Shown here one piece after another: positions 25,980 through 41,094 of a DNA stretch of 41,094 nt. Each line of letters begins with the position of its first letter. Positions within the stretch are counted from its first letter, which is position 1. A program made the translations under genes and the position numbers. The DNA comes from a virus: positions 1 through 41,094 of the IMG/VR virus record IMGVR_UViG_3300009151_000143; one strand, 5' to 3'. The notes beneath the pieces are model-generated. The model ran no database searches, was not told where the DNA came from, and saw nothing but the letters and a program-made list of their open reading frames with translations.

Positions 25980-26288
25980 ATGAACACTGAAACTCTAGTA
26001 GCTCATGCACGGGCTAGATTTGACCATGCCACTGCTCGTCGCACTCTAAAAGAAAAATACGAAGCACGTATGCTGTTTGCCCACTCAGGTGGCATGTGGC
26101 GAGCTGGTCCTGAATTACAATGTGTGTTGTTGAGTTGTGCTCAAGACAAAGATGTTGTGTTGTTGGACTTGTACGAAACTCCTGTGCGTGTGAATGTGCC
26201 TGAACTGTATGCTCAAGCACATGGCCATTGGCAGGAACAAATGAACGCCTGGTTGATAGAATACGAAAAACTAAATCAAAACAGATGA
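25980..26288 (+). CDS. Small protein of unknown function, first gene of the modification operon
   Basis: 102 residues. Helical N-terminus (TLVAHARARFDHATARRTLK), then a beta-rich core with MLFAHSGGMWRAGPELQCVL and KDVVLLDLYETPVRVN, and a C-terminal helix ending WQEQMNAWLIEYEKL. I recall similar small proteins near structural genes of T4-like cyanophages, but no function. No catalytic motif. There is no leader: a TATAAT box ends 6 bases before the ATG, and no Shine-Dalgarno sequence is present. Its stop overlaps the next gene's start as ATGA (26285-26288). Confidence 0.8.
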   Translation: MNTETLVAHARARFDHATARRTLKEKYEARMLFAHSGGMWRAGPELQCVLLSCAQDKDVVLLDLYETPVRVNVPELYAQAHGHWQEQMNAWLIEYEKLNQNR

Positions 26289-27088: not shown

Positions 27089-27863
27089 CGAACAAGGCTA
27101 CTTGATAGTGGCCACAAACACTGACTCTACCAACTATGTTGATTGCAGTCATCAACTGGCACAGAGTATAAAATACTGGCATCCTGATGCCAAAATCTGT
27201 TTGTTGACCAATTCAACAGAGAACCCTGCACCACACTTGTTTAATTATGTGCGTGAGTTTCCCTTGCCCACTGTGGCCAACGCTTATGCCAATGACTGTC
27301 AAGTGTTTCATGTTACTCCCTTTAGGGAAACTATCAAACTAGAAGCAGACATGATTGTGACCAGTCCTATTGATCACTGGTGGGACATGGCACGACATCG
27401 TGAGGTTGTGGTCAGTACAGGCTGTAGAGACTGGAAAGATCAACGTGCCAAGTCTAGACACTATCGCAAGGTATTTGATGCCAACGATTTACCGGATGTG
27501 TACAATGCTATCACATATTGGCGTTTGAGTTTAACAGCTAAAGAGTTTTTTGACACAGTGCAAGCCATATTTGAGAACTGGTCTCACTATCGTGCGTTAT
27601 TGAAGTTTCCTGAAGATGTGCCAAGTACCGATGTGGTGTATGCCATTGCGGCCAAGATTGTGGGAGTAGAGAAATGCACCATGCCGTTTGCATCCTATAC
27701 CACAATTGTACACATGAAACGACATATCATGCATGCTCAACGTGAAGACTGGATGGAAGAGTTTGCGTGGGAATATCGAGACTATTTGCTACGCATCAAC
27801 ACTCAAGCCCAATGGGGTGCAGTACACTACAACCAAAAGAGGTTCCGAGTTGACGCCAGATGA
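27075..27863 (+). CDS. GT-A-like glycosyltransferase, TTG start (paralogue of the previous gene)
   Basis: 262 residues. Start TTG 27075, supported by GGAG at 27064-27067 with 7-base spacing; the start overlaps the previous stop by 14 bases. The fold pattern follows the upstream gene: YLIVATNTDSTNYVDCSHQL, SIKYWHPDAKICLLTNS, then ETIKLEADMIVTSPIDHWWD, where EAD (residues 90-92) replaces the DxD. The change from Asp to Glu at the first position may alter metal binding or mark a different donor. The segment FPEDVPSTDVVYAIAA resembles the C-terminal helix that completes the donor site in GT8-like enzymes. The pair suggests gene duplication followed by change of specificity. Confidence 0.72.
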   Translation: MKPIDEQGYLIVATNTDSTNYVDCSHQLAQSIKYWHPDAKICLLTNSTENPAPHLFNYVREFPLPTVANAYANDCQVFHVTPFRETIKLEADMIVTSPIDHWWDMARHREVVVSTGCRDWKDQRAKSRHYRKVFDANDLPDVYNAITYWRLSLTAKEFFDTVQAIFENWSHYRALLKFPEDVPSTDVVYAIAAKIVGVEKCTMPFASYTTIVHMKRHIMHAQREDWMEEFAWEYRDYLLRINTQAQWGAVHYNQKRFRVDAR

Positions 27864-28188
27864 ATTTTGGGCAATCCTGCATGCAATGCCAGCCCCCGGA
27901 CCGGTGTTGTTTCGCTTGTACTACAATATAGATGGGACACCAATTCATTATACCATGGAAGATTTACCAGGTACATACATCGACGTTAGCCCAGAAACAT
28001 TTGCAATTGCTAGTATGAATGTTCGTGTACAGGATGGCAAATTAATTCAACTTGCAAATAAAACGACAACAAAGAAACTGGTGCCCAGCGATACAGGAAC
28101 ACCATGCCATCCTGACAATATGGCAATAGTGGTCACAGAGTTGGAGCCGCATCAAAGATGGAAGATAAAAACTTATGAAACAAATTGA
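27850..28188 (+). CDS. Unknown 112-residue protein, TTG start
   Basis: Start TTG 27850 is chosen over an earlier in-frame ATG (27733) because AGAGG lies at 27838-27842 with 7-base spacing, and because starting at 27733 would overlap the previous gene by 130 bases. The protein begins MTPDEFWAILHAMPAPGPVL, continues with FRLYYNIDGTPIHYTMEDLP and DVSPETFAIASMNVRVQDGK, and ends with GTPCHPDNMAIVVTELEPHQ. It is a compact alpha/beta protein with no known catalytic motif; Cys and His in TPCHPDN could be functional. It overlaps both neighbours by 14 bases, so it belongs to the same translational unit as the glycosyltransferases. Confidence 0.75.
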   Translation: MTPDEFWAILHAMPAPGPVLFRLYYNIDGTPIHYTMEDLPGTYIDVSPETFAIASMNVRVQDGKLIQLANKTTTKKLVPSDTGTPCHPDNMAIVVTELEPHQRWKIKTYETN

Positions 28189-29098
28189 TATAGCAGACTT
28201 AGATTGTATTTTTTTAACATACGATGAACCACTACGTGAAGAGTTTTGGATCAAGATTAAAAACATGGTTCCTTGGGCGGTACGTGTAGATGGGATCAAA
28301 GGATCCGATGCCGCACACAAAGCCGCAGCCGCAGCCAGCAACACTGAACGTTTTATTTTGATTGATGGCGACAACATGCCTGACCCGGAGTTCTTCAACA
28401 AGACTCTGATATATTCTACCGAACAGCATGAACAGGCGGTATATCGCTGGAGGGCAAGAAATCACATCAACGGACTCATGTACGGCAATGGCGGGTTGAG
28501 TTCATGGACCAGGACATTTATCAACCGCATGCGAACTCACGAAGCCACAGATGGTAGAACAGAAACACAGGTAGAATTTTGTTTTGATCCCTTGTACTGG
28601 CCCATGTACGATTGCTATTCAAACACCTATCCCAATGGATCAGCGTTTCAAGCCTGGCGTGCCGGCTTCCGTGAAGGTGTCAAAATGTGTTTGCAACGTG
28701 GCACAAAACCCACTGTGGCTGAATTTAAAAATCAAGTATTACGCAATTTAGATCATATGACCATATGGCATAACGTAGGAACAGATGTTGACTACGGAGA
28801 ATGGGCCATTGCTGGGTCGAGACAAGGCACATATATGACCATGCTGAGCAATTGGGACCATACTCTAGTACAAGACTTTGATGCCTTGGCAGAGTTATGG
28901 GAAACGGTTAAAGATTCACAACCTCGTATTTTGTCTAATCAACTGGGTCCTGAACTAGGTACACAACTAGACTTGCCAATGGCCATATTAGAAAGCGAAC
29001 AAAGTGCATTTTTTAAATATCATTATCGTTCAAATTGGCACAATCGTGGCGTAATGCTTCGCGAGATAGATGTAATTAGACAGCAAGAGGGTTGGTAA
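28175..29098 (+). CDS. Glycosyltransferase-like protein with DGD motif
   Basis: 307 residues. ATG 28175 overlaps the preceding gene by 14 bases. DLDCIFLTYDEPLREEFWIK and VPWAVRVDG, then NTERFILIDGDNMPDPEFFN, give the strand-helix-strand and a DxD-type motif (DGD, residues 64-66) of a GT-A fold. Features of the middle (NGGLSSWTRTFINRM, CFDPLYWPMYDCYSNTYPNG) would form the acceptor side. It is not an obvious paralogue of the two earlier glycosyltransferases, and its DxD lies closer to the N-terminus. I associate this type with T4-like phages that glycosylate their own products, but acceptor and sugar cannot be told. Its stop is 4 bases before the next ATG. Confidence 0.7.
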   Translation: MKQIDIADLDCIFLTYDEPLREEFWIKIKNMVPWAVRVDGIKGSDAAHKAAAAASNTERFILIDGDNMPDPEFFNKTLIYSTEQHEQAVYRWRARNHINGLMYGNGGLSSWTRTFINRMRTHEATDGRTETQVEFCFDPLYWPMYDCYSNTYPNGSAFQAWRAGFREGVKMCLQRGTKPTVAEFKNQVLRNLDHMTIWHNVGTDVDYGEWAIAGSRQGTYMTMLSNWDHTLVQDFDALAELWETVKDSQPRILSNQLGPELGTQLDLPMAILESEQSAFFKYHYRSNWHNRGVMLREIDVIRQQEGW

Positions 29099-29102
29099 AT
29101 TT

Positions 29103-29696
29103 ATGGCTGTGAAATACATTGTAGGCAGTCCAGGTCGCAGTGGTAGCATATTTGTTGCACTCACTATTGCAAAAAGTTTGGGAATTCGCGCAGTAATGAG
29201 CAATCAAGAACCAATGCCACAATCAAGCAATCTAATAGTATATCACAGCCATGATGCTCAACTGCAATTGAATTCTGACATCCCTGTCTTGCATGTTATG
29301 AGAAAAAATCTATACGCTGAAATTATTAGTGCAATGGTATGTGAGCAATATAATGAATGGGCATTCTACACCGGAAATAAACCACCATTTGTTGCTGATC
29401 TTGAAATGTTCGAACAAAAATATTTTTGGCACAAGTATTGGCACCAGGCTCATCGTGAATTAACGCATTATACCAATCGTAAGATTCTTGTGTTTGAAGA
29501 TTTTATCGGTCACAGTGAAATATTATGTGATCAACTTGAAATTTCGCGGATAAAAATACAAACTAATAAAAATCTCTATTCTGAAAATAACATATTAAAC
29601 GCCAATGAATTAAAAGAAAAATTTGATGAATTAGAATCAATGCCCCCACCGGCCACCTGGAAAGCACAAGAATGGAAAGATAACAGGGCAAAATGA
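29103..29696 (+). CDS. Sulfotransferase-like P-loop protein
   Basis: 197 residues. The N-terminus YIVGSPGRSGSIFVALTIAK matches the 5'-phosphosulfate loop of sulfotransferases (G-x-P-x-R-S-G-S) rather than a Walker A loop, because the Lys that binds ATP phosphate is missing. VLHVMRKNLYAEIISAMV (Arg67 and Ser76) fits the 3'-phosphate-binding R...S motif, and ILVFEDFIG fits the strand that follows. If right, it would transfer sulfate from PAPS to a hydroxyl of a sugar or peptide. At 197 residues it is short for the family, so it may keep only the core. AT-rich. Its stop overlaps the first radical SAM start as ATGA (29693-29696). Confidence 0.6.
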   Translation: MAVKYIVGSPGRSGSIFVALTIAKSLGIRAVMSNQEPMPQSSNLIVYHSHDAQLQLNSDIPVLHVMRKNLYAEIISAMVCEQYNEWAFYTGNKPPFVADLEMFEQKYFWHKYWHQAHRELTHYTNRKILVFEDFIGHSEILCDQLEISRIKIQTNKNLYSENNILNANELKEKFDELESMPPPATWKAQEWKDNRAK

Positions 29697-31102
29697 ATCA
29701 ACAAAATAGTGATGTACCTGCAAATAATAAAAGTGTATTCATGGGTTCAGCCGAACAAATGGCTGATAAACTAGGGCCAGCATTATGTTTGGCCAAATGG
29801 AAACAAGTCTCTCTACACTTGCCCACAGGACTTAACAACAGTTGCTATCATCCGCCCTTGCATGCAATAAACCCTGTGGAAATCAAGTTTGATCCAAGTG
29901 CATTGCATAACACCACACATAAAAAAGCACAACGTCAATTGATGCTGAGTGGTCAACGTCCTACAGAATGCTCTTACTGCTGGAACATGGAAGATCAAGG
30001 CAAACTAAGCGATAGACACTATCGGTCAGGTGAGTCCTGGGCCGCTGTGGACTTTGAAAAGATAAAAAATTCCACCGGAGATGAAGATGATGTTATCCCT
30101 AGCTACGTTGAAGTTAATTTTAATCATGCTTGCAATTTATCTTGCAGTTATTGTAGCCCTCAATTTAGTTCCACCTGGCAGTCCGAAGTTGAACGACTGG
30201 GTGGATATCCTACTAGCAATACTCACAACAATCCCAGTCATTTTGTTGGTTCTAGGCGGCCTATACCTGTTAGGGACGCTAATCCTTACGTAGATGCATT
30301 TTGGGCATGGTGGCCGACGTTGTATCCACAACTAGAACACTTCCGTATGACTGGTGGTGAGCCACTCATGGACAAGAACACATATCAAGTGTTTGACTAT
30401 GTGCTGGAGAACCCTAGTTCAAAATTGCACCTTGATGTCACCAGTAACTTCAGTGTAGAATCGGGATTATTCAATCAGTACATAAACAAAGTAAAACAGT
30501 TATGTGACGGACGCATTGAACACTTCATGCAGTATGTGAGTCTTGATTCTGGCATACCTGCACAGGCAGAATATATTCGTCATGGACTTGATTACATGAG
30601 AATGTCCGCTAATGTCGATCGCTACCTGACAGAAATACCCGGTCACAATAGTCTTACTTTTATAATCACCATGAACAATCTTTCAATCACAGGATTGAAA
30701 CCTTTGTTGGGTTGGATATTGTTTTTACGCAGAACACACAGTCGCACATACCAACGTGTGTGGTTTGATACCCCAGTGTTGCGTGAACCAGCATGGCAAA
30801 GTTTGCAAATCATGCCAGAAAGTTATGTGGCCAAACTTGAAGAAGCCAAACAATTTATGTTGGCACACATGGAAGATCCACGATATCTACATTGCGGATT
30901 TAAAGACTACGAAGTAGCAAGACTAGACAGAGATATTGCTTGGATGCGTAGCAAACAGGACCAAGATCATTCAGTTGCACGGGCAGACTTTTATAGATTT
31001 TTTAACGAACATGATCACAGACGCAGTACAAATTTCTTAGAAACATTTCCAGAGATGAAGTCTTGGTGGGCAGAATGTGAGTATTATGCTAGGCAATCGT
31101 AA
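29693..31102 (+). CDS. Radical SAM protein 1, N-terminal twitch type, class A
   Basis: 469 residues. Radical SAM enzymes bind a 4Fe-4S cluster through CxxxCxxC and cleave S-adenosylmethionine to start radical chemistry. Here the cluster is C147-C151-C154 (CNLSCSYC), followed by SPQFSSTW, and GGEPL is at 221-225, the SAM-binding motif. Before it lies an extra Cys set: C32 (LCLAKW), C51 (SCYHPP) and CSYC at 93-96, with LHNT at 71-74, likely an auxiliary Fe-S site as in twitch or SPASM domains but at the N-terminus. A shared EYIR (293-296) and a C-terminal DHRRSTNFLETFPEM (about 441-455) recur in the neighbours. ATGA overlap with the preceding gene. Substrate unknown. As far as I know, such N-terminal twitch proteins occur in phages and often in groups. 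Confidence 0.85.
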   Translation: MNQQNSDVPANNKSVFMGSAEQMADKLGPALCLAKWKQVSLHLPTGLNNSCYHPPLHAINPVEIKFDPSALHNTTHKKAQRQLMLSGQRPTECSYCWNMEDQGKLSDRHYRSGESWAAVDFEKIKNSTGDEDDVIPSYVEVNFNHACNLSCSYCSPQFSSTWQSEVERLGGYPTSNTHNNPSHFVGSRRPIPVRDANPYVDAFWAWWPTLYPQLEHFRMTGGEPLMDKNTYQVFDYVLENPSSKLHLDVTSNFSVESGLFNQYINKVKQLCDGRIEHFMQYVSLDSGIPAQAEYIRHGLDYMRMSANVDRYLTEIPGHNSLTFIITMNNLSITGLKPLLGWILFLRRTHSRTYQRVWFDTPVLREPAWQSLQIMPESYVAKLEEAKQFMLAHMEDPRYLHCGFKDYEVARLDRDIAWMRSKQDQDHSVARADFYRFFNEHDHRRSTNFLETFPEMKSWWAECEYYARQS

Positions 31103-32252
31103 ACTAATTTTAGATACTCATTGTGATATCTATCATATAATTAAAGATAAAGCTGATGCTATTTTTTGGAATTTTGCAGATCATGTAAATTCTAATCAAC
31201 TGGTCCCCAATGCAATATATGTAATTGGGCGAGAGCAATTACAATTAAACGCAAAGACAATACGACAACTAGTCATAGATGATACTATCACGGTGATTTT
31301 TAGTAATCCCCATGAAGGATCTGCTACAATAAAAGGACACTTAATAGCCTATGGTGGGTTATTAGATTTAGTTGAGTCTAAAAAAATATTGGTCATAACT
31401 GGTGGTGACCAAGAACCACAGTGGGATTATCTTCAATACGATATTTTTCTAACTTATATTTTAGACTACGCTGAAAATCGAGCAGTTATACAACAATACC
31501 AAAATTTATATAAAGCGGAAAAACCTTATAAATTTTTGTTTTTAAATGGTCGTGGTCGTCCGCACAGGAAATATCTACTAGAACGATTTCGTATATCGGG
31601 ATTGTTGGATCAATCTATTTGGACTAATCTTGATTCAAGAGCCGGACCTCAATTGATGATACAGGAAAATAAATCAGTGTCATTTATAAATAAAAATGTA
31701 GATTTTGTTCAACAACCGCTGCCTGTAAAATTTTTAGACCCAAAATATGAAGTGGAATCTTATTCTCACTGTATTGAAAAATCTACAAAACAAGGATTTG
31801 TTAAGTCTGAGTTATTTAATAATACCTGGGGAGACATATACTTGCGAGCCGAACCATACGCTGATACGTATTTTAGTTTGGTAACAGAAACAGTATACAT
31901 GTATCCTTACAGTTTTAGGACTGAAAAAACCTGGAAGCCAATATCAATTGGCCATCCTTTTGTAATAGCAGCCAATACAGGGTACTATCGAGATCTTCAT
32001 AATTTAGGATTTCAAACATTTGGACATTTGATAGATGAAACATTTGATCAAATTGACGATAATCAACAACGTATTGAACGCACTGCTGAGGTAGTAGAAG
32101 ATTTATGTCAACAAGACCTTGTAAAGTTTGCAGAAGAGTGTTATAATGTATGTAAATATAACCTAGAACATTTTGCAGAAATGAGTATTAACGTTCGAAA
32201 AGAATTCCCTGAACAATTCAAACAATTCATCAATGATCGATTTAGAATTTAA
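31077..32252 (+). CDS. Glycosyltransferase-like protein interrupting the radical SAM array
   Basis: 391 residues from GTG 31077, or 388 from ATG 31086; both overlap the preceding gene and neither has a clear ribosome site. No radical SAM motif. The C-terminal half carries FSLVTETVYMYPYSFRTEKT, KPISIGHPFVIAANTGYY and LGFQTFGHLIDETFDQIDD, a combination I know from phage and bacterial proteins related to GT-B glycosyltransferases (GT10-like), where TEK..KPI..GHP marks the donor site. The middle has KFLFLNGRGRPHRKYLLERF. The gene is visibly more AT-rich than the radical SAM genes around it (many TTA, ATA and AAT codons), suggesting separate acquisition. It breaks the array after radical SAM 1 and overlaps radical SAM 2 by 20 bases. 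Confidence 0.65.
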   Translation: MSIMLGNRKLILDTHCDIYHIIKDKADAIFWNFADHVNSNQLVPNAIYVIGREQLQLNAKTIRQLVIDDTITVIFSNPHEGSATIKGHLIAYGGLLDLVESKKILVITGGDQEPQWDYLQYDIFLTYILDYAENRAVIQQYQNLYKAEKPYKFLFLNGRGRPHRKYLLERFRISGLLDQSIWTNLDSRAGPQLMIQENKSVSFINKNVDFVQQPLPVKFLDPKYEVESYSHCIEKSTKQGFVKSELFNNTWGDIYLRAEPYADTYFSLVTETVYMYPYSFRTEKTWKPISIGHPFVIAANTGYYRDLHNLGFQTFGHLIDETFDQIDDNQQRIERTAEVVEDLCQQDLVKFAEECYNVCKYNLEHFAEMSINVRKEFPEQFKQFINDRFRI

Positions 32253-33564
32253 ACAACAGGTGTTAGACACCAAGTCCCAAAGTTTTTGTGCGGCAAAATG
32301 GTACAATGCTACCATCTGGTTGGGCTCAGGCATGACCACAAGTTGCCACCACCCGCCGGCCCATTTGGTGGACCGTGATCAAGTCCGTGCCAACCCTAAG
32401 CTACTGCACAACACTGATCAAAAGAAAGATGACCGCCGCAAGATGATTGCAGGCGAACGTCCAGCTGGATGCGAATACTGCTGGAAGATTGAAGACATGG
32501 GACGTGATGCTATTAGCGACCGTGTGTACAAATCAAAGATATTTCCCATAGAGGCCTTGAATGATGCTTTCCACACTCCGCCAGAAGATGATGTTAATCT
32601 TCGAACCCTTGAAATTGCATTTGACCGCACTTGTCAATTTGCTTGTTCTTATTGCAACCCTGCTTTTAGTAGCACTTGGGTTAACGATATACGAAAGAAT
32701 GGACCTTATGACCGACTTGTTAGTGACGGCAGGAACCATTTTACTCACACTCACGATAGTGCTCAACTTTATAAATTCGGTGAAACTAATCCGTATGTGG
32801 AGGCGTTCTTTGCCTGGTGGGAATCAGATCTCCACAGAACCTTACAAGAATTGAGAATAACCGGAGGTGAACCACTCATGTCAGGCTACACATGGAAGCT
32901 GATTGATTGGTTTAAACAAAACCAAGGCAAGAGCCAAACAAGACTAGCAATTAACTCAAATCTTGGCACAGACGTAGATATTGATAGATTATTGATCAGT
33001 GTAGATGGCATGGACATAGATTTGTATACTTCAAACGAAGCAATTAGTCTGCAAGCAGAATACATCCGTGATGGTCTTGTATGGGACGACTGGGCCAACA
33101 ACGTAGAACGTTTGTTAGATTCAGGCAAGTTTCGTGGCATCCATGTCATGTGTACTGTCAATGCATTGTGCCTAGACAGTTTGGATCAATTGCTAGACTG
33201 TATTGCAAACTGGAAACTGGAATACGGTCGTGATGCTGTATCGTTTACATTAAACATACTACGATTTCCTAGTTTTCAATCACCCTTGGTATTACCTGAT
33301 GAATTGCGTACACAATACCGATTCGGTCTAATAGATTTTATGGTACGACACAAAGGTCAATCTTATATGCATGAACACGAAATCAATCACCTATTGCGAT
33401 TGATTGACTATTTGGATGTGGTAAAAACTCCGCACTCAGAAGCATTCGAAATGCCCAAATTGCTGAATGACTTTAAACAGTTTTATACACAGTATGACCA
33501 ACGACGTGGCAAAGATTTTGGTCAAGCATTTCCTAATTTAAAAACCTGGTATAATTCCTTATGA
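32233..33564 (+). CDS. Radical SAM protein 2, class A
   Basis: 443 residues. N-terminal Cys set C19 (SFCAAKWY), C38 (TSCHHPP), CEYCW at 80-84, with LLHNTDQKK at 58-66. Radical SAM cluster C134-C138-C141 reads CQFACSYC, with Gln in place of the usual Asn after the first Cys. GGEPLMS 211-217, EYIR 276-279, and C-terminal DQRRGKDFGQAFPNLKTWY (about 422-440). It is the closest relative of radical SAM 3: they share GACACCAAG and AAAGTTTTTGTG at the DNA level near the start. ATG 32233 overlaps the previous stop by 20 bases; its own stop overlaps the next start as ATGA. Same proposed role and unknown substrate as its neighbours. Confidence 0.85.
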   Translation: MIDLEFKQQVLDTKSQSFCAAKWYNATIWLGSGMTTSCHHPPAHLVDRDQVRANPKLLHNTDQKKDDRRKMIAGERPAGCEYCWKIEDMGRDAISDRVYKSKIFPIEALNDAFHTPPEDDVNLRTLEIAFDRTCQFACSYCNPAFSSTWVNDIRKNGPYDRLVSDGRNHFTHTHDSAQLYKFGETNPYVEAFFAWWESDLHRTLQELRITGGEPLMSGYTWKLIDWFKQNQGKSQTRLAINSNLGTDVDIDRLLISVDGMDIDLYTSNEAISLQAEYIRDGLVWDDWANNVERLLDSGKFRGIHVMCTVNALCLDSLDQLLDCIANWKLEYGRDAVSFTLNILRFPSFQSPLVLPDELRTQYRFGLIDFMVRHKGQSYMHEHEINHLLRLIDYLDVVKTPHSEAFEMPKLLNDFKQFYTQYDQRRGKDFGQAFPNLKTWYNSL

Positions 33565-34961
33565 CTTTCCCAGCAAATCTTTCAGTAATAAAACAATGGA
33601 AAGAAAGAGTGCTTGACACCAAGAGCGAAAGTTTTTGTGGAGCCAAATGGTATCATTCAAGTATCTGGTTGTGGAGAGGATGGACTGCTAGTTGTCATCA
33701 TAACCCACCTCATCAAATTAATCAATTAGAGATTGCCCAAACTCCTAGCGCATTACATAATACACCGAAAAAGATAAACGAACGTGCAATGATGCAACGT
33801 GGAGAGAGACCGCTAGATTGTCAGTATTGTTGGGCTGTGCAAGATATTGATCCCGAATTGGTAACCGACAGAGTTATATACAGTAAACCAATGGCAGAAA
33901 AAAATCTGCAATCAGCATTTGAAAATTCCCCCGATACACATGTAAATCCAACATATCTTGAATTGGGATTTGATAGCACCTGTAATCTAGCATGCAGTTA
34001 TTGTTGTCCTGACATCAGCAGTTCCTGGATGCGCGACATAAAACAAAACGGTGTGTACCAAAATATTGTTACAGATGAGCGTAACCATTACACACTTGCT
34101 GGTAGTGATGGAGACAATTACAGTTATGGTGAAGAAAATCCCTATACTGAAGCATTTTTTAAATGGTGGGAAACTGATCTGCATCGGTCATTGAAGAATA
34201 TACATATCACTGGTGGAGAGCCATTGATGAGTGGACATTTCTGGAAATTCTTAGATTGGTTAGAAAAGAACCCTAATAAAAGTAACGCAGGTATATCAAT
34301 ACAAACTAATCTAGCATATGATTCAAACACACTGAATAAATTTTTTAATAAAATTTCAAACATAAAATCAAATATTTCAATTTCTACCAGTGCCGAATCT
34401 GTTGGATCAAAAGCAGAATATGTTAGAGACGGATTAAATTGGGATCAATGGTGTTGTAATATTGATACACTGATTGATAACAAACGTATACGACGGGTGG
34501 TTATGATGTCTACAATAAGTGCATTATCATTGAATGGATTTGTAGAATTTTTAACTTGGTTAGTAGAAAAAAAGAAACAAACTAGTCGTACATATTTTAA
34601 TTTGTACATTAGTTACGTGCGTTGGCCTACTTTTCAGAATGTCCTGGTATTACCGATAGAAAAAAGAAAACAGCATAGTGCTGAATTACAAAATTTTCTT
34701 GACGCTAATTATCAATGGTTTTCAGTAGTAGAACAAAATTTCATAAGCAGATTGATATCTTATCTTGTTGAAATACAAGTACCTCATCGAGGTAGTATAA
34801 TTTCTGATGGTACACTAGAATTCAATGATCACAGTTTTGATCACAATGTTTCAGCAATGGAAAAAGATTTCAAAAGTTTCTTTTCACAGTACGATCAACG
34901 CCGAAACAAGAACTTTACGGCTACATTTTCCGATCTAAGAGAATGGTATGACTCAATATAA
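33561..34961 (+). CDS. Radical SAM protein 3, class A
   Basis: 466 residues. N-terminal set C26 (SFCGAKWYH), C45 (ASCHHNPP), CQYCW at 87-91, with ALHNTPKK at 64-71. Cluster C141-C145-C148 with an extra adjacent Cys149 (CNLACSYCC). GGEPLMS 218-224, EYVR 286-289, C-terminal DQRRNKNFTATFSDLREWY (about 445-463). Paired with radical SAM 2 by sequence. More AT-rich, with many AAT, ATA and AAA codons, so it has drifted or came by another route. Its N-terminus (MTFPANL) is echoed by that of radical SAM 7 (MNLPAKL). The stop overlaps the next start by 14 bases. Confidence 0.85.
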   Translation: MTFPANLSVIKQWKERVLDTKSESFCGAKWYHSSIWLWRGWTASCHHNPPHQINQLEIAQTPSALHNTPKKINERAMMQRGERPLDCQYCWAVQDIDPELVTDRVIYSKPMAEKNLQSAFENSPDTHVNPTYLELGFDSTCNLACSYCCPDISSSWMRDIKQNGVYQNIVTDERNHYTLAGSDGDNYSYGEENPYTEAFFKWWETDLHRSLKNIHITGGEPLMSGHFWKFLDWLEKNPNKSNAGISIQTNLAYDSNTLNKFFNKISNIKSNISISTSAESVGSKAEYVRDGLNWDQWCCNIDTLIDNKRIRRVVMMSTISALSLNGFVEFLTWLVEKKKQTSRTYFNLYISYVRWPTFQNVLVLPIEKRKQHSAELQNFLDANYQWFSVVEQNFISRLISYLVEIQVPHRGSIISDGTLEFNDHSFDHNVSAMEKDFKSFFSQYDQRRNKNFTATFSDLREWYDSI

Positions 34962-36213
34962 TTATAACAGTGCCGATCTAGTAAAGCCAGTGGAGCTTAC
35001 TGAGCGTGAAGATTTTTTACTAAAGGATTCAAAGACGTTTTGCATTTATCCATGGATACACTTGCATGCCTATCCCACTGGTGAAGCATACCCGTGTTGT
35101 CATGCTGAGATGGGCGTGGGACAAGTTGGCAATTGCCGTACTAACACACTAGAAGAAATCTGGCACAACGATGCCATGACAAAACTACGTAGTGGCATGC
35201 TGAGTGAAACTAAGAATGACACTTGTGGTCGCTGCTATGAACAAGAGGAATCCGGTTTCTTTTCAGGGCGTAAGAGTGCTAACAAGCATCACGGACACCA
35301 TATAAAGAAATTAGACTCGACACCATTCGAAATGACCTATTGGGACATTCGATTTAGTAATTTGTGTAACTTAAAGTGTCGCTCATGTGGACACATTTTT
35401 AGTAGTCAGTGGTATCAGGATCAAGTAAAACTTGCAGGACCTGAGTGGAAGGCCCGCAATACAGTTCTTAACTATGCTGGCCGTACAGAAACAGACATGT
35501 GGGAACAGCTAGAACCACATTTAGACTATGTGGAGCAAATATACTTTGCTGGTGGTGAACCATTGTTGATGGAAGAACACTACAACATTCTTGATGAACT
35601 GGTACGTCGTGGTAGATTTGATGTGCGATTGATTTACAACACAAACTTCACGCACATGGACCTTAAAGGTCGTAGCGTATTTGAATACTGGAAACAATTT
35701 AAATCAGTAGCAGTTGGTGCTAGTTTGGACGCTATGGGACCAATAGCAGAGTACATACGCAAAGGTACAGATTGGGCCGTAGTAGAACAAAATCGTCGAG
35801 ACATGATTGAGATATGCCCACAAGTTGATTTTTACATTAGTCCTACATTAAGCATTATGAATGTTTTGCATTTACCACAATTTCATCAGGCATGGGTAGA
35901 ACAAGGATTGCTTAAACCGCAAGACTTAAATGTAAATATTTTACAAGATCCTGCACACTACAGGATTGATATTGCCCCCAGTGAATACAAAGAAAAACTT
36001 ACTGTGAGATATTATGATCATCTCAAGTGGCTTGAATCAGTAGGTGACCCGCTGGGTCGTGCCACACAAGGATTTCAGTCGGCGATTCAATTTATGAACT
36101 CTACAGACAATACACACTTGATAGATACATTCTGGCGCAAGACACATGAACTAGATAGTATCCGTAATGAAAATATTTTAAATGTGATTCCCGAATTACA
36201 GGTATTAACATGA
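34948..36213 (+). CDS. Radical SAM protein 4, class B
   Basis: 421 residues, first of the second class. The N-terminal Cys site has the form FCIYPWIHLHAYPTGEAYPC (C32, C50, C51) and TCGRCYEQE (C93, C96). This is the C-x-x-P-W...P(T)G...P-C-C pattern familiar from SPASM and twitch domains, here placed ahead of the catalytic barrel. Cluster C140-C144-C147 (CNLKCRSCGHIFSS); GGEPLLM 202-208; EYIR 268-271. The C-terminal SIRNENILNVIPEL is a shorter form of the shared DxRRxxNFxxxFPEL end. It lacks the class A LHNTxxK motif. Start overlaps radical SAM 3 by 14 bases; stop overlaps the next by 4. Confidence 0.87.
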   Translation: MTQYNYNSADLVKPVELTEREDFLLKDSKTFCIYPWIHLHAYPTGEAYPCCHAEMGVGQVGNCRTNTLEEIWHNDAMTKLRSGMLSETKNDTCGRCYEQEESGFFSGRKSANKHHGHHIKKLDSTPFEMTYWDIRFSNLCNLKCRSCGHIFSSQWYQDQVKLAGPEWKARNTVLNYAGRTETDMWEQLEPHLDYVEQIYFAGGEPLLMEEHYNILDELVRRGRFDVRLIYNTNFTHMDLKGRSVFEYWKQFKSVAVGASLDAMGPIAEYIRKGTDWAVVEQNRRDMIEICPQVDFYISPTLSIMNVLHLPQFHQAWVEQGLLKPQDLNVNILQDPAHYRIDIAPSEYKEKLTVRYYDHLKWLESVGDPLGRATQGFQSAIQFMNSTDNTHLIDTFWRKTHELDSIRNENILNVIPELQVLT

Positions 36214-37595
36214 GTACCTGGACCGAGTTTTACAGCGAAATACGTGACCCTTCTTGGCCCAATTGCGACCGTGAAGAAGACTTTGCACTATTACCTGACG
36301 CAATACAAAAAGAGTGTCGAGAACAATTTGGATATGTGCCGGGTAGTTTTTACAAACAAAGCAAACTGCCCAATAAACGATTTCCTATTGTGACCGATAC
36401 AGCATGTCAACTTAAATGGAACTGGAGCACCATTTATTTGACCACAGAAAAAACAGCCAGTTGCCATAGAACCAATCATCATTCTTTTGACACAGAATCT
36501 TTTGACTTTCACAATACGCCCAGCAAACTAGACGATCGCAAAAGAATGTTGGCTGGTGAGTGGCCAACTTTGGGGTGTAACTACTGTCAAGATATTGAAG
36601 CGTCTGATGGTGCCAGTGATCGCATAACAAACTTAGATTTCCCAGGTATGTATGCACCACCAGAATTAGACAACGACCCTACTGCTATTAGAGTTACTCC
36701 TAGAATTCTAGAAGTGTACTTTGATAACACCTGTAATCTAAAGTGTTTGTATTGTGGGCCGCATTTTAGCAGTTTATGGGATGCAGAAAACGTCAAGCAT
36801 GGACTGCCAGCATTCAGAAAAAGCCCTAATATTGAACGCAACAAGTTAAAGTTATTCGATTGGTTAAAACAAAACGCATATACGCTCACTGTGTTTAACA
36901 TCTTAGGCGGTGAGCCCTTGTATCAACCTGAACTAGAACAATGCCTTGAGTTATTTGAACAATATCCTGCTCCTGAACTCAAACTACAAATGTTCACTAA
37001 CTTGAATGCTCGCTTACCTTACTTGAAACGCATAATTCAACGTGTACAAAAGTTAATTGATTCAAGACATATTAGAGAGTTTGAAATCACTGCCAGTCTA
37101 GACTGTTGGGGCGCATCCCAGGAATATGTACGGTTTCCTTTAAACTTAGAAGAATGGGAACAGAACTTTGAATACTTGTTAAGCGAACCATGGATAAATT
37201 TGATTATCAATTCAACTGTGACTCCGTTAACCGTAAAAACTCTACCAGACTTGTTACAAAAGATAAATGAATGGAATCAAACAAGAATAGTGTATCATTA
37301 TCAAAATAGCGTTAACAATCCAAAATATATGTTTATAGACTTGTTTGGAGACATTTTTAAGGATGATTTTGAGCGTTCAATAAAACTAAAGCCCAATTGC
37401 ACACCTGAACAGAAGGCCAGTCGGAATTACCTAATAGGCATAGCACAACAGAGTGCTCACGGTAGCCCTAAACCGACACAAATACGCCATTTGTATAATT
37501 TTTTAAATACTATGGATCGACGACGGCACACAAGTTGGCCCCGAACATTTCCCTGGCTAGTAGATCAATTTGCTCAATACAATTTAAAATTATGA
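36210..37595 (+). CDS. Radical SAM protein 5, class A'
   Basis: 461 residues with an N-terminal extension of about 50 residues. N-terminal Cys set C66 (ACQLKWNWSTIYLTTEKTAS), C85 (SCHRTNHH), CNYCQ at 123-127, with DFHNTPSK at 99-106. Cluster C175-C179-C182 (CNLKCLYCGPHFSS) mixes class A and B features. GGEPLYQ 233-239; EYVR 305-308; C-terminal DRRRHTSWPRTFPWL (about 436-450). It pairs with radical SAM 7 in length, extension and the ACQxKWxWSTI motif. The His-His-Pro-Pro of radical SAM 2 and 3 is replaced by His-Arg-Thr. ATGA overlaps at both ends. Confidence 0.86.
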   Translation: MSTWTEFYSEIRDPSWPNCDREEDFALLPDAIQKECREQFGYVPGSFYKQSKLPNKRFPIVTDTACQLKWNWSTIYLTTEKTASCHRTNHHSFDTESFDFHNTPSKLDDRKRMLAGEWPTLGCNYCQDIEASDGASDRITNLDFPGMYAPPELDNDPTAIRVTPRILEVYFDNTCNLKCLYCGPHFSSLWDAENVKHGLPAFRKSPNIERNKLKLFDWLKQNAYTLTVFNILGGEPLYQPELEQCLELFEQYPAPELKLQMFTNLNARLPYLKRIIQRVQKLIDSRHIREFEITASLDCWGASQEYVRFPLNLEEWEQNFEYLLSEPWINLIINSTVTPLTVKTLPDLLQKINEWNQTRIVYHYQNSVNNPKYMFIDLFGDIFKDDFERSIKLKPNCTPEQKASRNYLIGIAQQSAHGSPKPTQIRHLYNFLNTMDRRRHTSWPRTFPWLVDQFAQYNLKL

Positions 37596-38806
37596 ACTTA
37601 CCACACGATAAATTTTGCGTTCTTCCTTGGATCAGTCTTGAGGCCAGCCCTGTAGGTACTGTACGTCCATGCTGTCTGGCCGATGATGAGATTGTTGACA
37701 GTAATAGTGTTAAATTTAATTTAAAGTCTGCTAATTTTAAAGATATTCAAAACAGTGAATACATGTATCAATTGCGACAAGCATTTTTAGCAGGCAAGCA
37801 ACCACAAACTTGTCGCAAGTGCTGGAACGAAGAACGTGCAGGACGTACAAGCAAACGCATGCACACATTGGATAGAATGAAACACATGGGCATTAGTTCG
37901 GAATGGACTCGGGATACCAAACCATTGATGTTCTTGGATTTGAAACTGGGTAATATTTGTAACTTGAAATGCCGTATATGTGGATCGTGGAGCTCGAGCC
38001 AATTTGCAAGTGAAGAGATTGCACAACTACCCGCTGAAGAGAAGAAAAAGTCATATGCCTATACCATGCTCAAAGCAGGTACATGGCCCCAAGAAAATGA
38101 ATCATTCTGGGCCGAAATTGATGCGTGTTTAAATGACATACATTATATAGAATTCACAGGCGGCGAGCCGTTTATGATTCAGGAACATTTTACCATGCTT
38201 CGAGGTATTGTAGATCGCGGTATTGCACACCAAGTTGAAATACACTACAACACCAATGGCACACACTATCCTGAACACGCTGAGCATATTTGGAAGCATT
38301 TTAAAACAGTAGAAATAGCATTCAGTCTCGACGATGTAGACGAACGTTTTGAATATCAACGTACAAATGCTGTATGGACAGAAGTGTGTGCTAACCTAGA
38401 TCGCTTTAGAGACTTAAAAGAAATATACCCTAACATCGAACTACAAGTATGCACCACAGTGAATATCTTTAATGTGCGATATCTTGGAGATATTGCTCAT
38501 TGGTTAGAACAAAACCAAAAGAGCTTTAATTTTGTATACTGGAACATGATGCACGATGCCTGGTACTTCTCTATTGCGTGTTTGCCCGATTCAGCTAAAC
38601 ATGCTATTAGTGAATATTTAGACTCAATTGAAACTTGTTACAGAAATGATTTTGATCGTATACGTGAATTTATGAATCGTGGAGCATCAACTGATGGCTT
38701 TATGACACGCATGAAAATAGCGGATCTAGATCGCAAGCGTAACCAAAACTTTACTGTATACTGCCCTGAAATGGCACAATTATTAAATTATGAATTTACC
38801 GGCTAA
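37592..38806 (+). CDS. Radical SAM protein 6, class B
   Basis: 404 residues from ATG 37592, chosen over an upstream in-frame ATG at 37535 because of the ATGA overlap and because the class B motif then starts at residue 8. N-terminal site FCVLPWISLEASPVGTVRPC (C9, C27, C28) and TCRKCWNEE (C74, C77). Cluster C123-C127-C130 (CNLKCRICGSWSSS); GGEPFMI 190-196; the shared EYxR is FEYQR here (254-257), less typical. C-terminal DRKRNQNFTVYCPEM (about 380-394). It is compact, with no extension. Start shares MNLP and the bases ATGAA(C/T)TTACC with radical SAM 7. Confidence 0.86.
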   Translation: MNLPHDKFCVLPWISLEASPVGTVRPCCLADDEIVDSNSVKFNLKSANFKDIQNSEYMYQLRQAFLAGKQPQTCRKCWNEERAGRTSKRMHTLDRMKHMGISSEWTRDTKPLMFLDLKLGNICNLKCRICGSWSSSQFASEEIAQLPAEEKKKSYAYTMLKAGTWPQENESFWAEIDACLNDIHYIEFTGGEPFMIQEHFTMLRGIVDRGIAHQVEIHYNTNGTHYPEHAEHIWKHFKTVEIAFSLDDVDERFEYQRTNAVWTEVCANLDRFRDLKEIYPNIELQVCTTVNIFNVRYLGDIAHWLEQNQKSFNFVYWNMMHDAWYFSIACLPDSAKHAISEYLDSIETCYRNDFDRIREFMNRGASTDGFMTRMKIADLDRKRNQNFTVYCPEMAQLLNYEFTG

Positions 38807-40202
38807 ACTAGCGTTGTGCGTTACTCCTGATGATTACACTGTGTTTTCAGGTCCTGATTGGCCTAGTTATACAGATTACCTTAAAGGCGAGTGGGGCAAC
38901 AAAACAGATATTTGTGAAGAGATTCGGGGCTTTACAGATAAATTTCTAGAACAAGGCACAAAATTTCCTATACGTACTGCTACTGCTTGCCAATCTAAAT
39001 GGACATGGAGTACAATATTTCTCAATACGTTGAGCACAGCTAGTTGTCATAGAGTAGAACCGTTTAAATTTACCCTTGACGATTTTGATAATTTTCACAA
39101 CACACCCGAAAAGATTACTGCTAGAGAAAAGATGCTCAAAGGTGAATGGCCAGGACTGGGTTGTGAATATTGTAAAAATATTGAATCAGCAGGCGGGCAC
39201 AGTGATAGATTACACAACTTAGAAATACGCGGACTTACTCCTCCAGAAGTAGAACTAGATCCTACTGCCACACATGTGAGTCCCAAAATAGTAGAAATTT
39301 TTGCACAGAACACTTGTAATCTTGCTTGTGTGTATTGTAGCAGTACTGCCAGCAGTAAAATTGAACAAGAGAATGTCAAGCACGGGCCCTTTAATAAAAA
39401 TGGAGTTAGAATCCAAGTAGAACGTCCCAGTATACTTGCACCAAAATACTTTGATCGTTGGATCGCGTGGTTAGATAAAAACATACAGAGCCTGGTGCGA
39501 TTACACTTGCTAGGCGGAGAAACATTTATTCAGCATGAATTAATGACTCGGGTACTAGATATTATTGAAAAACGGCCCAGCCCTAACTTGGAATTTTGCA
39601 TATTTTCAAACTTAAATGTTCCAGACAAGTACTGGACAATGTATATTGAGCGCATTCGCAAACTACAACAACAGGGACATATACAAGTATTTGATCTAAC
39701 TGCCAGCATAGATTGTTGGGGACCGGAACAAGAGTATGTACGCTCAGGATTAAATCTAGATCGATTTGAACAACGATTTGCTTGGGCAAGTGAACAAGGT
39801 GCATGGATGCGATTAAATGCCAATCAAACAGTAACAGCGCAGACCGTGCGCACAATGCCCGAATTAATTAAAAAAATCGATCAATACAGCCAGCACAAAA
39901 ATATCGGCCATTATTTTCAATTTTACACAGGGCCGCCGACACAGATGTTTCAACATCCACAAACATTTGCCTGGAGCATGTGGGCCAACGACTTTGATCG
40001 CATATTTACAGCAATGCCACAGCGTACACTAGAACAACATGAAGCTATTCTACGTATGCAAGGATTACAAGCACAGTTACAACAGCAGAAACAACATAAT
40101 TGGACTGACATACGTAGGTTACATACATATCTAGACGAAATAGATCGTCGACGAGGAACTAATTGGCGCAGCCTTTTTTCATATTTAGATATTCATGAAT
40201 AA
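38790..40202 (+). CDS. Radical SAM protein 7, class A', with GGET in place of GGEP
   Basis: 470 residues with the same kind of N-terminal extension as radical SAM 5. N-terminal Cys set C67 (ACQSKWTWSTIFLNTLSTAS), C86 (SCHRVEPF), CEYCK at 125-129, with NFHNTPEK at 101-108. Cluster C176-C180-C183 (CNLACVYCSSTASS). The SAM-binding motif reads GGETFIQ (242-248): Thr replaces the Pro kept in the other seven proteins. EYVR 315-318, in the frame IDCWGPEQEYVR. C-terminal DRRRGTNWRSLFSYL (about 452-466). Overlaps the previous gene by 17 bases and the next by 8. All cluster Cys are present, so activity is still likely. Confidence 0.85.
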   Translation: MNLPAKLALCVTPDDYTVFSGPDWPSYTDYLKGEWGNKTDICEEIRGFTDKFLEQGTKFPIRTATACQSKWTWSTIFLNTLSTASCHRVEPFKFTLDDFDNFHNTPEKITAREKMLKGEWPGLGCEYCKNIESAGGHSDRLHNLEIRGLTPPEVELDPTATHVSPKIVEIFAQNTCNLACVYCSSTASSKIEQENVKHGPFNKNGVRIQVERPSILAPKYFDRWIAWLDKNIQSLVRLHLLGGETFIQHELMTRVLDIIEKRPSPNLEFCIFSNLNVPDKYWTMYIERIRKLQQQGHIQVFDLTASIDCWGPEQEYVRSGLNLDRFEQRFAWASEQGAWMRLNANQTVTAQTVRTMPELIKKIDQYSQHKNIGHYFQFYTGPPTQMFQHPQTFAWSMWANDFDRIFTAMPQRTLEQHEAILRMQGLQAQLQQQKQHNWTDIRRLHTYLDEIDRRRGTNWRSLFSYLDIHE

Positions 40203-41094
40203 ACCCGATACACTCTGCATGGCACCGTGGACTCACACTTACCTCTCTCCTCAAACTGAGCGTAGAATGTGTTGTGCATCGCGCGAGCCAGCACAAAGTT
40301 TTGAGCAGTATATAGATACCAGCACAGGTACAGGAACATATACACCAATGACACTAGAACAACATTGGAATAGTGAACACATGCAGAGTGTACGTCGTCG
40401 TATGATGGCCGGCGAATCATTGCCCGAGTGCGAAGTGTGTAACGACAAGTTGTTGAATACTAATGTGTATAGAAGTTATTTCAATCAGTTGTTTGGTCAC
40501 AAGTATGATGATGCAATAAAAGCAACTGATTCAACAGGGCATACCACAATGAAGCCGGTGAGTTGGGATTACAGATTTAGTAACTTGTGTAATTTCAAAT
40601 GTCGTATGTGTGGAGACATGTTGTCTAGTGCCTGGGAAACAGAACAACGCCAGCATGACATGATTGACTTGAACAATCCCAAAAACAATTGGATGCAACC
40701 TGCGGTACGACAGCAGATATCGCAATTCCAAGACACACAAATTGAGGCAGAGTTTGCTGACGCAGTAGAACAGCATCGTGTGGAAGAAGTATATTGGGTA
40801 GGTGGCGAACCACTCATGTATGAACAACACTGGCGGTACATGCAACGTATAATCGAATTAGGAGATGGGCCACGTGTTTATGCTAGATATAATACTAATC
40901 TTAGCCGTGTTGAGTTTGGCAATAGAAATCTTTATAAAAATATTTTATTGGGCTTACGAGATTGGCAAATCTGTGCCAGCCTTGATGGAACAGGCACGAC
41001 AGGAGAGTACATAAGAACAGGGCTTTCTTATAGTACATTTGTAAAAAACTTTCGTGAAGGATTGGCAATTGCTACCAATCCTAGGCAGATGCGA
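40195..41094 (+). CDS. Radical SAM protein 8, class B (partial, runs off the right edge)
   Basis: ATG 40195 opens a frame of 300 codons with no stop before the window ends. N-terminal site LCMAPWTHTYLSPQ (C8), then MCC (C26, C27) and ECEVCND (C79, C82). Cluster C132-C136-C139 (CNFKCRMCGDMLSS); GGEPLMY 203-209; SLDGTGTTGEYIR with EYIR at 271-274. It resembles radical SAM 4 most (WDYRFSNLCN versus WDIRFSNLCN). The missing C-terminal 100 or so residues should contain the shared FPEL-like end. Overlaps radical SAM 7 by 8 bases. The array may continue beyond the window. Confidence 0.87.
   Translation, partial: MNKPDTLCMAPWTHTYLSPQTERRMCCASREPAQSFEQYIDTSTGTGTYTPMTLEQHWNSEHMQSVRRRMMAGESLPECEVCNDKLLNTNVYRSYFNQLFGHKYDDAIKATDSTGHTTMKPVSWDYRFSNLCNFKCRMCGDMLSSAWETEQRQHDMIDLNNPKNNWMQPAVRQQISQFQDTQIEAEFADAVEQHRVEEVYWVGGEPLMYEQHWRYMQRIIELGDGPRVYARYNTNLSRVEFGNRNLYKNILLGLRDWQICASLDGTGTTGEYIRTGLSYSTFVKNFREGLAIATNPRQMR

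Follow-up and report, generated by a model that had tools for sequence, protein, structure and literature searches.

A group of very large, uncultured phages carries a nearly unchanging row of five different radical SAM (rSAM) enzymes, eight in the phage analysed here, next to its tail-fibre genes and probable glycosyltransferase (GT) genes, pointing to a shared multi-step chemical modification whose target has not been identified. The window, that is, the whole 41,094-nucleotide stretch of the virus record IMGVR_UViG_3300009151_000143, was analysed by profile searches, alignment, comparison of gene neighbourhoods, a tree and structure prediction.

Results

Eight N-twitch radical SAM genes in one probable operon

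A preliminary description of the sequence had recognised eight consecutive, diverged rSAM paralogues at 29693-41094, each with CxxxCxxC, GGE(P/T), an N-terminal extra Cys set and an EYxR motif. The observation of eight such genes was confirmed, with corrections. The genes, all on the plus strand, are R1 (29693-31102), R2 (32233-33564), R3 (33561-34961), R4 (34948-36213), R5 (36210-37595), R6 (37592-38806; the ORF list starts it at a TTG at 37535), R7 (38790-40202) and R8 (40195-41094). They are not strictly consecutive, because an unrelated gene, X (31077-32252), with no rSAM match, lies between R1 and R2, and R8 is truncated by the end of the record. The nine junctions from 29103 to R8 overlap by 4-26 bases (X may start nine bases later), so an operon is likely.

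To verify the family assignment, the profile searches that had been proposed for this purpose were run with the NCBIfam twitch model and with PF04055. NCBIfam NF033640 (N_Twi_rSAM) hit all eight proteins over its curated cut-off of 170 bits and over nearly the full model, with 308.5 (R1), 284 (R2), 274.6 (R3), 400.1 (R4), 222 (R5), 330.5 (R6), 195.4 (R7) and 256.4 bits (R8); the truncated R8 matched with its first 300 aa over model positions 2-265. PF04055 gave eight places in the record, but only R6 and R7 exceeded its gathering score of 29.5 bits and the other six matched below it at E 0.0013 or better, so that this profile taken alone does not decide the assignment of all eight. In the alignment of all eight proteins, the rSAM Cys triad (C140, C144, C147), GGE (202-204), E268/Y269/R271 and the N-terminal Cys 32, 51, 93 and 96 were invariant. 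PF13186 (SPASM) was found at the N-terminus over its cut-off in R4, R6 and R8 and was not reported in the other five; that the N-terminal Cys bind a cluster is inferred, and cleavage of SAM was not assayed. None of eight other window ORFs that were checked has CX3CX2C.

An assembly artefact of collapsed or repeated reads had been named in advance as a finding that would overturn the observation, and it was rejected. The 71.5-kb contig L010/G001, a longer record of the same phage, repeats the array at 99-100% protein identity, completes R8 and adds a ninth match over the cut-off and a weak tenth below it, and 130 other contig groups show the same kind of block.

Five core slots are kept together in related phages

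Neighbours of homologues in other phage genomes, whose inspection had likewise been suggested, were then compared. The 160 loci were reduced to 130 groups by merging loci that share an identical rSAM segment; the window, its eight copies (L001-L008), the Vibrio phage K566 locus (L009), L010 and L012 were dropped, and 15 of the 130 groups that do not span both R1 and R8 were left out. Of the 115 remaining groups, 113 encode R1, R2, R4, R6 and R8 as separate genes in one order, as does the window, and the other two (L087; L022/L023) carry R4-R6 as one ORF of 841/851 aa. As the viral scans returned the best 80 of 578-581 confirmed relatives, these counts describe the closest relatives; loci were found through R2/R3-like or R4 queries, so R2 or R4 is partly present by construction, whereas R1, R6 and R8 are not. 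Gene order is not universal: in the marine contigs L175, L177 and L179, R8 precedes R6. R3, R5 and R7 are patchy, lineage-specific extras, and variable genes are inserted between slots.

Every distinct protein over 380 aa in every slot keeps CX3CX2C. The EYxR pattern, scored with Y or F allowed, is less constant, being found in 121 of 123, 124 of 127, 6 of 8, 100 of 128, 10 of 10, 120 of 123, 5 of 5 and 118 of 118 distinct proteins in R1 to R8, respectively. The median dN/dS was 0.06-0.10 in the seven slots with usable pairs, indicating strong purifying selection; the sampled close pairs (84-98% identity) are not independent of each other, and R3 had one pair, R5 two and R7 none. A mere accumulation of genes without joint function, for which the patchy extras and the inserted variable genes could speak, is therefore highly unlikely given the five core enzymes in 115 of 115 spanning groups (two by fusion), the low dN/dS, the intact motifs and the longer record of the same phage.

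The eight proteins fall into two classes (R4/R6/R8 and R1/R2/R3/R5/R7). In the tree, R1, R2, R4, R6 and R8 each group with their own relatives in Bacteriovoracaceae chromosomes. Recent tandem duplication of one gene was thus rejected for the core but kept for R3, which falls inside the R2 group as a phage duplicate of the R2 type. This was a quick tree with SH-aLRT support only, some forks were drawn open, and the R2 and R4 rows are not strictly one clade. The array therefore consists of five conserved plus three lineage-specific genes, not eight equal recent paralogues.

The core follows tail-fibre-like and glycosyltransferase-like genes

The genes upstream of the array, all on the plus strand, were examined in 166 fetched loci. 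The protein s201 (22371-22976; phrog_11259, function unknown, E 4e-69) has homologues in 36 of them, many of which do not reach this far upstream. S635 (23003-24910) is a tail-fibre-like structural protein, with a PHROG hit to a virion structural protein over its N-terminal 72 aa (E 2e-9) and homologues in 97 loci. The fibre-like t332 (24922-25920) is rich in Ser/Thr (S+T 32% against a mean of 12.8% for 2815 proteins) and has homologues in 119 loci. The small conserved protein u102 (25980-26288), of unknown function, was found in 115 loci.

G1 (26228-27088; the true start may be ATG 26285) is a probable GT-A-like glycosyltransferase present in 137 loci; it is homologous to G2 (profile match, E 6e-18) but gave no convincing Pfam or PDB hit of its own. 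G2 (27075-27863), in 138 loci, is a probable GT8-like glycosyltransferase whose weak best PDB match is glycogenin (E 0.11), with only scattered single-member hits in Pfam. The small conserved protein s118 (27733-28188) has an uncertain start and overlaps the end of G2; its family was found in 123 of 167 records, usually between G2 and G3, and the window's copy was matched to it by eye. G3 (28175-29098), in 150 loci, is GT2-like, with PF13641 found weakly in 5 of 12 members (best E 0.0054) and PF10111 below its cut-off (E 0.0026) in a bacterial homologue. ST (29103-29696) is a lineage-specific gene with a sulfotransferase-like N-terminal P-loop recognised by eye only; it gave no convincing family hit and occurs in 4 of 166 loci, two of them the same phage. 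The family of X was found in 105 of 167 records; X looks GT-B/fucosyltransferase-like by eye only, without a convincing Pfam or PDB match. PDB sequence profiles gave nothing useful for X, G1, G3 or the protein D359. The GT assignments thus rest on weak or indirect hits for G1, G2 and G3 and on inspection for X, and the Pfam searches leave it undecided whether these four belong to a GT family.

When loci were anchored on G3 instead of rSAM, 79 of 80 viral loci had a family member, and t332, S635 and G1 were present in 80 of 80, although these loci partly come from the same contigs. A carbamoyltransferase lies downstream and an amidinotransferase of AGAT/StrB/SxtG type nearby, both decorating enzymes. 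IscU was found in 13 of 25 and an A-type Fe-S carrier in 19 of 25 large phage records, and one record has 21 family matches. The 24-25 large records used for these counts were not de-duplicated, some look like the same phage (e.g. G005/G013, G011/G017 and G016/G021), and their family counts include matches below the cut-off. No IscU or A-type hit was obtained in G001, the only other record of this very phage, which is partial. The preliminary description did not mention the usual neighbours (t332, u102, G1-G3 and X); the carbamoyltransferase, the phage Fe-S assembly genes and the Bacteriovoracaceae counterparts lie outside the window.

Bacterial counterparts and the host

The rSAM family was found in 73 of 240 genomes in the phylum of the bacterial genome G026 (three of the 73, G026-G028, were the seeds) against 2 of 238 in the phylum of G029 (one of the two is G029, its seed); at most seven candidates per genome were scored, so copy numbers are lower bounds, and the census did not extend to Proteobacteria. 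In one bacterial chromosomal contig of the G026 phylum (L256/L257), t332, u102, G1, G2, a small ORF, G3 and rSAM genes stand in phage order, but only 1 of the 240 genomes has t332. G3 occurs in 15 of the 240 genomes, all among the 73 with the rSAM family, and lies within the fetched stretch (about 10 kb) of one in 11 of the 15; in the other 4 no family member lies in the fetched stretch. Several stretches were fetched because they held rSAM hits, so this count is not a random sample. In the bacterial locus L211 the family sits beside a clear GT2 gene (PF00535, E 1.6e-12). The bacterial array L183, in contrast, has no homologue of G1, G2, G3 or X in the fetched stretch, and the nearest GT2-like ORF, recognised by eye, lies about 6 kb upstream (L207), so the rSAM set can exist without the phage GT-like genes. 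The gene names of the bacterial flanks (obg, rpmA, atp, cmk, rnhB, trmD, rplS and pheT) were likewise given by eye.

A Bdellovibrionota host was considered because of the family prevalence and the island in L257. Against it, the phage IscU is 79-81% identical to beta/gamma-proteobacterial IscU (Neisseria, Pseudomonas and E. coli; mostly large replicons filed as plasmids) and at most 77% identical to IscU in 191 genomes of the G026 phylum. The difference is small, and no host was assigned; a CRISPR-spacer host assignment of the 330-357-kb records was not made.

Structure comparison and alternative products

AlphaFold models of R2 and R4 were obtained with pLDDT 91.9 and 92.4, respectively. The nearest solved folds include BlsE (blasticidin S), SkfB, SuiB and a sactipeptide maturase, and the N-terminal region aligns with the C-terminal end of BtrN. 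The fold comparison did not separate peptide-acting from sugar-acting enzymes, and a family missing from those lists is not excluded. The analysis did not include complex prediction of R4 with R6 or of R1/R2 with t332, or a structure search of G1, G3 and X. Together with the amidino- and carbamoyltransferases, these similarities could suggest a secreted or intracellular small molecule or RiPP-like product, aminocyclitol-like or peptide, made by several rSAM maturases. This reading is unlikely: hits to RiPP maturase models (WgkB, YhhB, StsB and others) are all far below their cut-offs, and u102 and s118 look conserved along their length, unlike typical precursors, although precursors, other small ORFs, transporters and NRPS/PKS genes were not searched for systematically. 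Nucleic-acid or nucleotide chemistry (modified bases or tRNA, viperin- or QueE-like) is very unlikely, since the profile and fold similarity to viperin, QueE and MoaA is weak, with scores far below the cut-offs, and the genes stand with fibre and GT-like genes.

Discussion

The interpretation offered in the preliminary description was that one or two rSAM genes in a phage would be unremarkable, whereas eight suggest a multi-step or multi-substrate pathway under selection; it was partly supported. Membership of the rSAM superfamily and the twitch family and maintenance by selection hold, and a multi-enzyme pathway is the natural reading of five core members kept separately and of the R4-R6 fusion. 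Eight as the unit is not supported; the unit is five plus optional extras.

Phages with many rSAM genes were already reported. The T4-like environmental phage TARA_ERS488813_N000010, a 183-kb marine genome, has 12 rSAM genes and an Fe-S A-type carrier, with IscU in other phages of that study (PMC5332604); no conserved gene order, core set or GT linkage is described in the section examined, and membership of its genes in the present family was not tested. The Aeromonas giant phage vB_AerVM_332-Vera, placed in Chimallinviridae, has eight rSAM genes within its largest structural gene cluster, called highly unusual by its authors (PMC12390700); homology to the present genes was not examined. The baseplate gene of the window is nearest to Salicola SCTP-2, XaC1 and Atu_ph07. 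In the pelagimyophage host-recognition cluster, rSAM cassettes lie beside fibre genes and glycosyltransferases in a hypervariable region and are described as a gene-content difference between two genomes (PMC7029224), whereas here five rSAM genes are the constant part and other genes vary. Among named phages, 6 records had homologues of R4, including Vibrio phages K566 (6 family matches, 2 over the cut-off) and nt-1 (2 matches, none over it), with only about 24% identity to R4. No match to R2, D359 or G3 was found in 50,697 phage records, and no named phage homologue of the R2-like protein of L183 was found. NF033640 itself is a single-protein model, and the five-member set with GT-like genes is not part of its definition.

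We tentatively interpret the array as a surface-modification cassette of a clade of jumbo myophages, an ancient co-operating enzyme set that modifies a surface structure, most likely the phage's own fibre or its glycan. The analysis itself establishes that five distinct N-twitch rSAM enzymes form a set that is kept whole, in fixed order in the sampled close relatives, in genes that overlap in this window, under purifying selection and directly after tail-fibre and GT-like genes, that R4 and R6 are sometimes one polypeptide, and that most of the largest phages also encode IscU and A-type carriers. The remainder is inference: that the enzymes are catalytically active, each with the SAM-cleaving [4Fe-4S] cluster plus an auxiliary cluster held by the N-terminal Cys and loaded partly by the phage's own Fe-S genes, and that they act one after another, R4 and R6 as a pair, on a single structure assembled by G1, G2, G3 and often X. 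In this view the most likely acceptor is t332 or a glycan on it, with R3, R5, R7 and the variable cargo genes changing the final decoration, although no substrate, product or structure links any of these enzymes to t332. The effect would be a chemically unusual phage fibre or coat that alters receptor binding or hides the virion.

A less likely alternative is that the GT-like and rSAM enzymes build or edit a host O-antigen or capsule sugar during infection, blocking superinfection by competing phages. The glycosyltransferases in the host-recognition region of marine T4-like phages, which also holds rSAM cassettes, were read by their authors as host surface modification (PMC7029224); carbamoyltransferase, amidinotransferase and GT-like genes suit glycan decoration, and in bacterial chromosomes the family sits beside G3 and, in L211, the GT2 gene. 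However, in the sampled phages the cassette follows their own fibre genes, and t332 is found with it in a bacterial contig.

The evidence also leaves room for a more far-reaching but doubtful possibility, a previously undescribed five-enzyme rSAM pathway, coupled to phage glycosyltransferases and phage-borne Fe-S cluster assembly, that installs radical-made modifications on a virion fibre or its glycan and was exchanged as a set between jumbo phages and Bacteriovoracaceae, in whose phylum the same family is expanded.

The family N_Twi_rSAM has no assigned function in its name or in the texts examined. A minimal set of five members conserved in more than a hundred phage groups, with a natural R4-R6 fusion, a defined neighbourhood and bacterial counterparts, turns a collection of many odd rSAM genes in phages into a testable pathway. 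It could also explain why many of these phages carry their own IscU and A-type carriers. If the product is a radical-modified fibre or glycan, it would be a new layer of phage-host recognition and new enzyme chemistry.

Eight twitch-type radical SAM proteins in a probable phage operon

The ORFs at 29693-41094 of the 41,094-base virus record include eight proteins (R1-R8) of the NCBIfam family NF033640 (N_Twi_rSAM). Membership in the radical SAM superfamily had been named in advance as a point on which the preliminary description would stand or fall, and the profile search with NF033640 gave 195-400 bits for the eight proteins against a cut-off of 170 bits. PF04055 alone reached its gathering score in only two of them, leaving the superfamily profile undecided for the others, which is why the twitch model is the better test. 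In the alignment of the eight proteins, the rSAM Cys triad, GGE, E-Y-x-R and four N-terminal Cys residues are invariant, while identity to R4 is only 19-29%. None of eight other ORFs of the window that were checked has CX3CX2C. The nine junctions from ST, a gene located upstream of R1, to R8 overlap by 4-26 bases. The observation of an array of eight diverged rSAM genes was confirmed with one correction: the genes had been described as consecutive, whereas gene X (31077-32252), which has no rSAM match, follows R1. An assembly artefact had likewise been put forward as a possible refutation; a 71.5-kb contig of the same phage (L010/G001) repeats the block at 99-100% protein identity, completes R8, and adds D342, a carbamoyltransferase (PF02543/PF16861), a ninth family member and a weak tenth.

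The eight proteins fall into two classes. R4, R6 and R8 have an N-terminus with CxxPW...CC...CxxC that Pfam calls SPASM, and R1, R2, R3, R5 and R7 have CxxKW...SC...CxxC. Profile-profile alignment with hhalign showed that both classes are related over the full length (E 2e-44). In a profile search of the PDB, the N-terminal part aligned with residues 189-262 of BtrN, its C-terminal end (E 9.5e-5), whereas the best hit overall was 8vpo, an rSAM core protein without a function in its name (E 6e-8). BtrN keeps its auxiliary cluster in this region, and the alignment suggests, but does not prove, a circularly permuted auxiliary-cluster domain. The AlphaFold models of R4 and R2 are confident (pLDDT 92.4 and 91.9, respectively), and their predicted rSAM domains match BlsE, the sactipeptide maturase 5wgg, anSME, SkfB, SuiB, DesII and MoaA at Z 11.7-14.0 and rmsd 3.3-4.7 over 211-252 residues. 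These matches are tied or nearly so, and no substrate class follows from them.

Five of the slots form a conserved core

To examine whether the array is conserved, two scans of viral contigs were carried out, giving 160 loci (the best 80 of 578 and the best 80 of 579 relatives). After merging of loci with identical rSAM segments, 130 groups remained, of which 115 span R1 to R8, and 113 of these encode all five of R1, R2, R4, R6 and R8 in that order, 109 of them with no second core copy. The two exceptions, L087 (13235-15760) and L022/L023 (5614-8169 and 11320-13875, respectively), carry R4 and R6 as one ORF of 841 or 851 aa, a natural fusion of two radical SAM enzymes with the halves scoring 555-696 bits, so that 115 of 115 groups encode all five. 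A third contig, L024 (11344-13557), has a truncated 738-aa member of the same cluster, assigned by cluster membership only. The order is not universal, as R8 precedes R6 in the more distant marine contigs L175, L177 and L179, which come from MAGs. R3, R5 and R7 occur as 11, 13 and 10 proteins among the fetched loci, against 150-161 for each core slot. Every distinct protein over 380 aa in every slot keeps CX3CX2C, and median dN/dS is 0.074, 0.092, 0.074, 0.092 and 0.102 for R1, R2, R4, R6 and R8, respectively. Variable genes are inserted between the core genes. When the GT-like gene G3 was used as the anchor instead of rSAM, 79 of 80 viral loci held a family member; the exception, L313, ends about 2.1 kb after G3.

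Gene neighborhood of the array

The neighbors of homologous arrays, whose inspection had been proposed beforehand, showed the usual order S635 - t332 - u102 - G1 - G2 - s118 - G3 - R1 - (X) - R2 - R4 - R6 - R8 - D359 - carbamoyltransferase. The fibre-like protein t332 is Ser/Thr-rich (32%); about 1% of 2815 proteins, its own family included, reach that value. G3 weakly resembles GT2, and G2 weakly resembles glycogenin and is homologous to G1. No convincing family or PDB match was found for X, G1 and D359 in the Pfam and PDB searches. D359 (L012:4573-5598, minus strand) represents a conserved family of about 350-aa proteins without any Pfam or PDB match, present in 136 of the 167 records, as a rule right after R8. 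L011, a stretch of the sister contig, has an amidinotransferase of the AGAT/StrB/SxtG type (18472-19506), the family of which is in 53 of the 167 records. The baseplate gene of the window is nearest to those of jumbo myophages (Salicola SCTP-2, XaC1 and Atu_ph07), and directly after the baseplate wedge gene lies one ORF of 4832 aa (7707-22205), probably a giant tail-fibre protein, which was not analysed further.

Fe-S cluster genes in the large phage records

In 24 records of 148-357 kb, there are 7-21 family matches each at E <= 0.001, the most in the record G004; not all are over the cut-off, and the records were not de-duplicated. IscU (PF01592) was found in 13 of 25 records, including 8 of the 9 over 330 kb, and A-type carriers (PF01521) in 19 of 25, although records may be fragments. 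This is what a load of ten to twenty Fe-S enzymes would call for, but the link is an inference. The two genes are adjacent in G004, and in the jumbo phage loci L353 (7407-8100) and L356 (7668-8358) the IscU gene is directly followed by an A-type carrier gene. The IscU of L353 is 79-81% identical to beta/gamma-proteobacterial IscU.

Bacterial counterparts

A genome scan found the family in MAG contigs that look like phage cassettes (L175-L177 and L179; L178 in part) and in contigs with ordinary chromosomal flanks (L180, L182 and L183). L183, titled Bacteriovoracaceae (phylum Bdellovibrionota), holds relatives of all five core enzymes in one array, with no homologue of G1, G2, G3 or X in the fetched stretch; a GT2-like ORF, recognized by inspection, lies about 6 kb upstream (L207). 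A quick tree placed each core phage clade with bacterial relatives of its own, with L183 supplying one to all five (support at these forks 80 to 100, some drawn open).

In that phylum, 73 of 240 genomes, three of them seeds, have the family at E <= 1e-40, against 2 of 238, one of them the seed, in the phylum of the seed genome G029. G3 homologues occur in 15 of 240, all among the 73, and lie within the fetched stretch (about 10 kb) of a family member in 11 of the 15. In genome G193, one contig with pheT, rplS, trmD, rnhB and cmk (named by inspection) carries, right after pheT, rSAM - G3 - another CX3CX2C protein - t332 - u102 - G1 - G2 - small ORF - G3 - rSAM - rSAM (L257, G193:C21:126001-139884), with the phage-like fibre gene, GT-like genes and rSAM genes in phage order. 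It is a single contig for which a chimera is not excluded, and t332 was found in that one genome of 240 only. Islands with further, different radical SAM proteins beside N_Twi_rSAM, often with G3 homologues, are present in L211-L214, L217 and L224, from genomes of the same phylum; two of these proteins, from L214, were checked with PF04055. They represent an rSAM-rich chromosomal system of unknown function.

Discussion

No report of the five-member core, the R4-R6 fusion, the G3 linkage or the Bacteriovoracaceae counterpart was found in our literature searches, which did not extend to preprints or to most subscription papers. A marine T4-like genome with 12 rSAM genes and an A-type carrier was reported in 2017, with IscU in others (PMC5332604), and rSAM cassettes in the host-recognition cluster of pelagimyophages were reported in 2020 (PMC7029224). 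A Baltic Sea virus study listed 261 'ahbD' genes, few with both rSAM and SPASM-type Pfam domains, and called inferences on their function speculative (PMC9301287); whether these genes belong to the present family was not examined. Eight rSAM genes in the structural cluster of Aeromonas phage 332-Vera were reported in 2025 as highly unusual (PMC12390700). Thus, the occurrence of many rSAM genes in a phage, near structural genes, is already known.

The preliminary description read the eight genes as a multi-step or multi-substrate pathway under selection, and this interpretation is partly supported. What the analysis demonstrates is a set of five related but long-separated enzymes, kept intact with fibre and GT-like genes, whereas the mechanism by which they most likely work is inferred. 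A host-envelope target is the main rival to a target on the phage itself. The array of L183 without phage-type GT genes shows that the rSAM set need not depend on them in every organism, and this weakens the glycan part of the proposal. The fibre-like t332 is the best candidate acceptor because it is the structural gene found with GT-like and rSAM genes in a bacterial contig as well as in the phages. In this view, phage glycosyltransferases would prime an acceptor, the five rSAM enzymes would modify it in steps, with R4 and R6 acting together, and accessory rSAM enzymes, carbamoyltransferases and amidinotransferases would diversify it.
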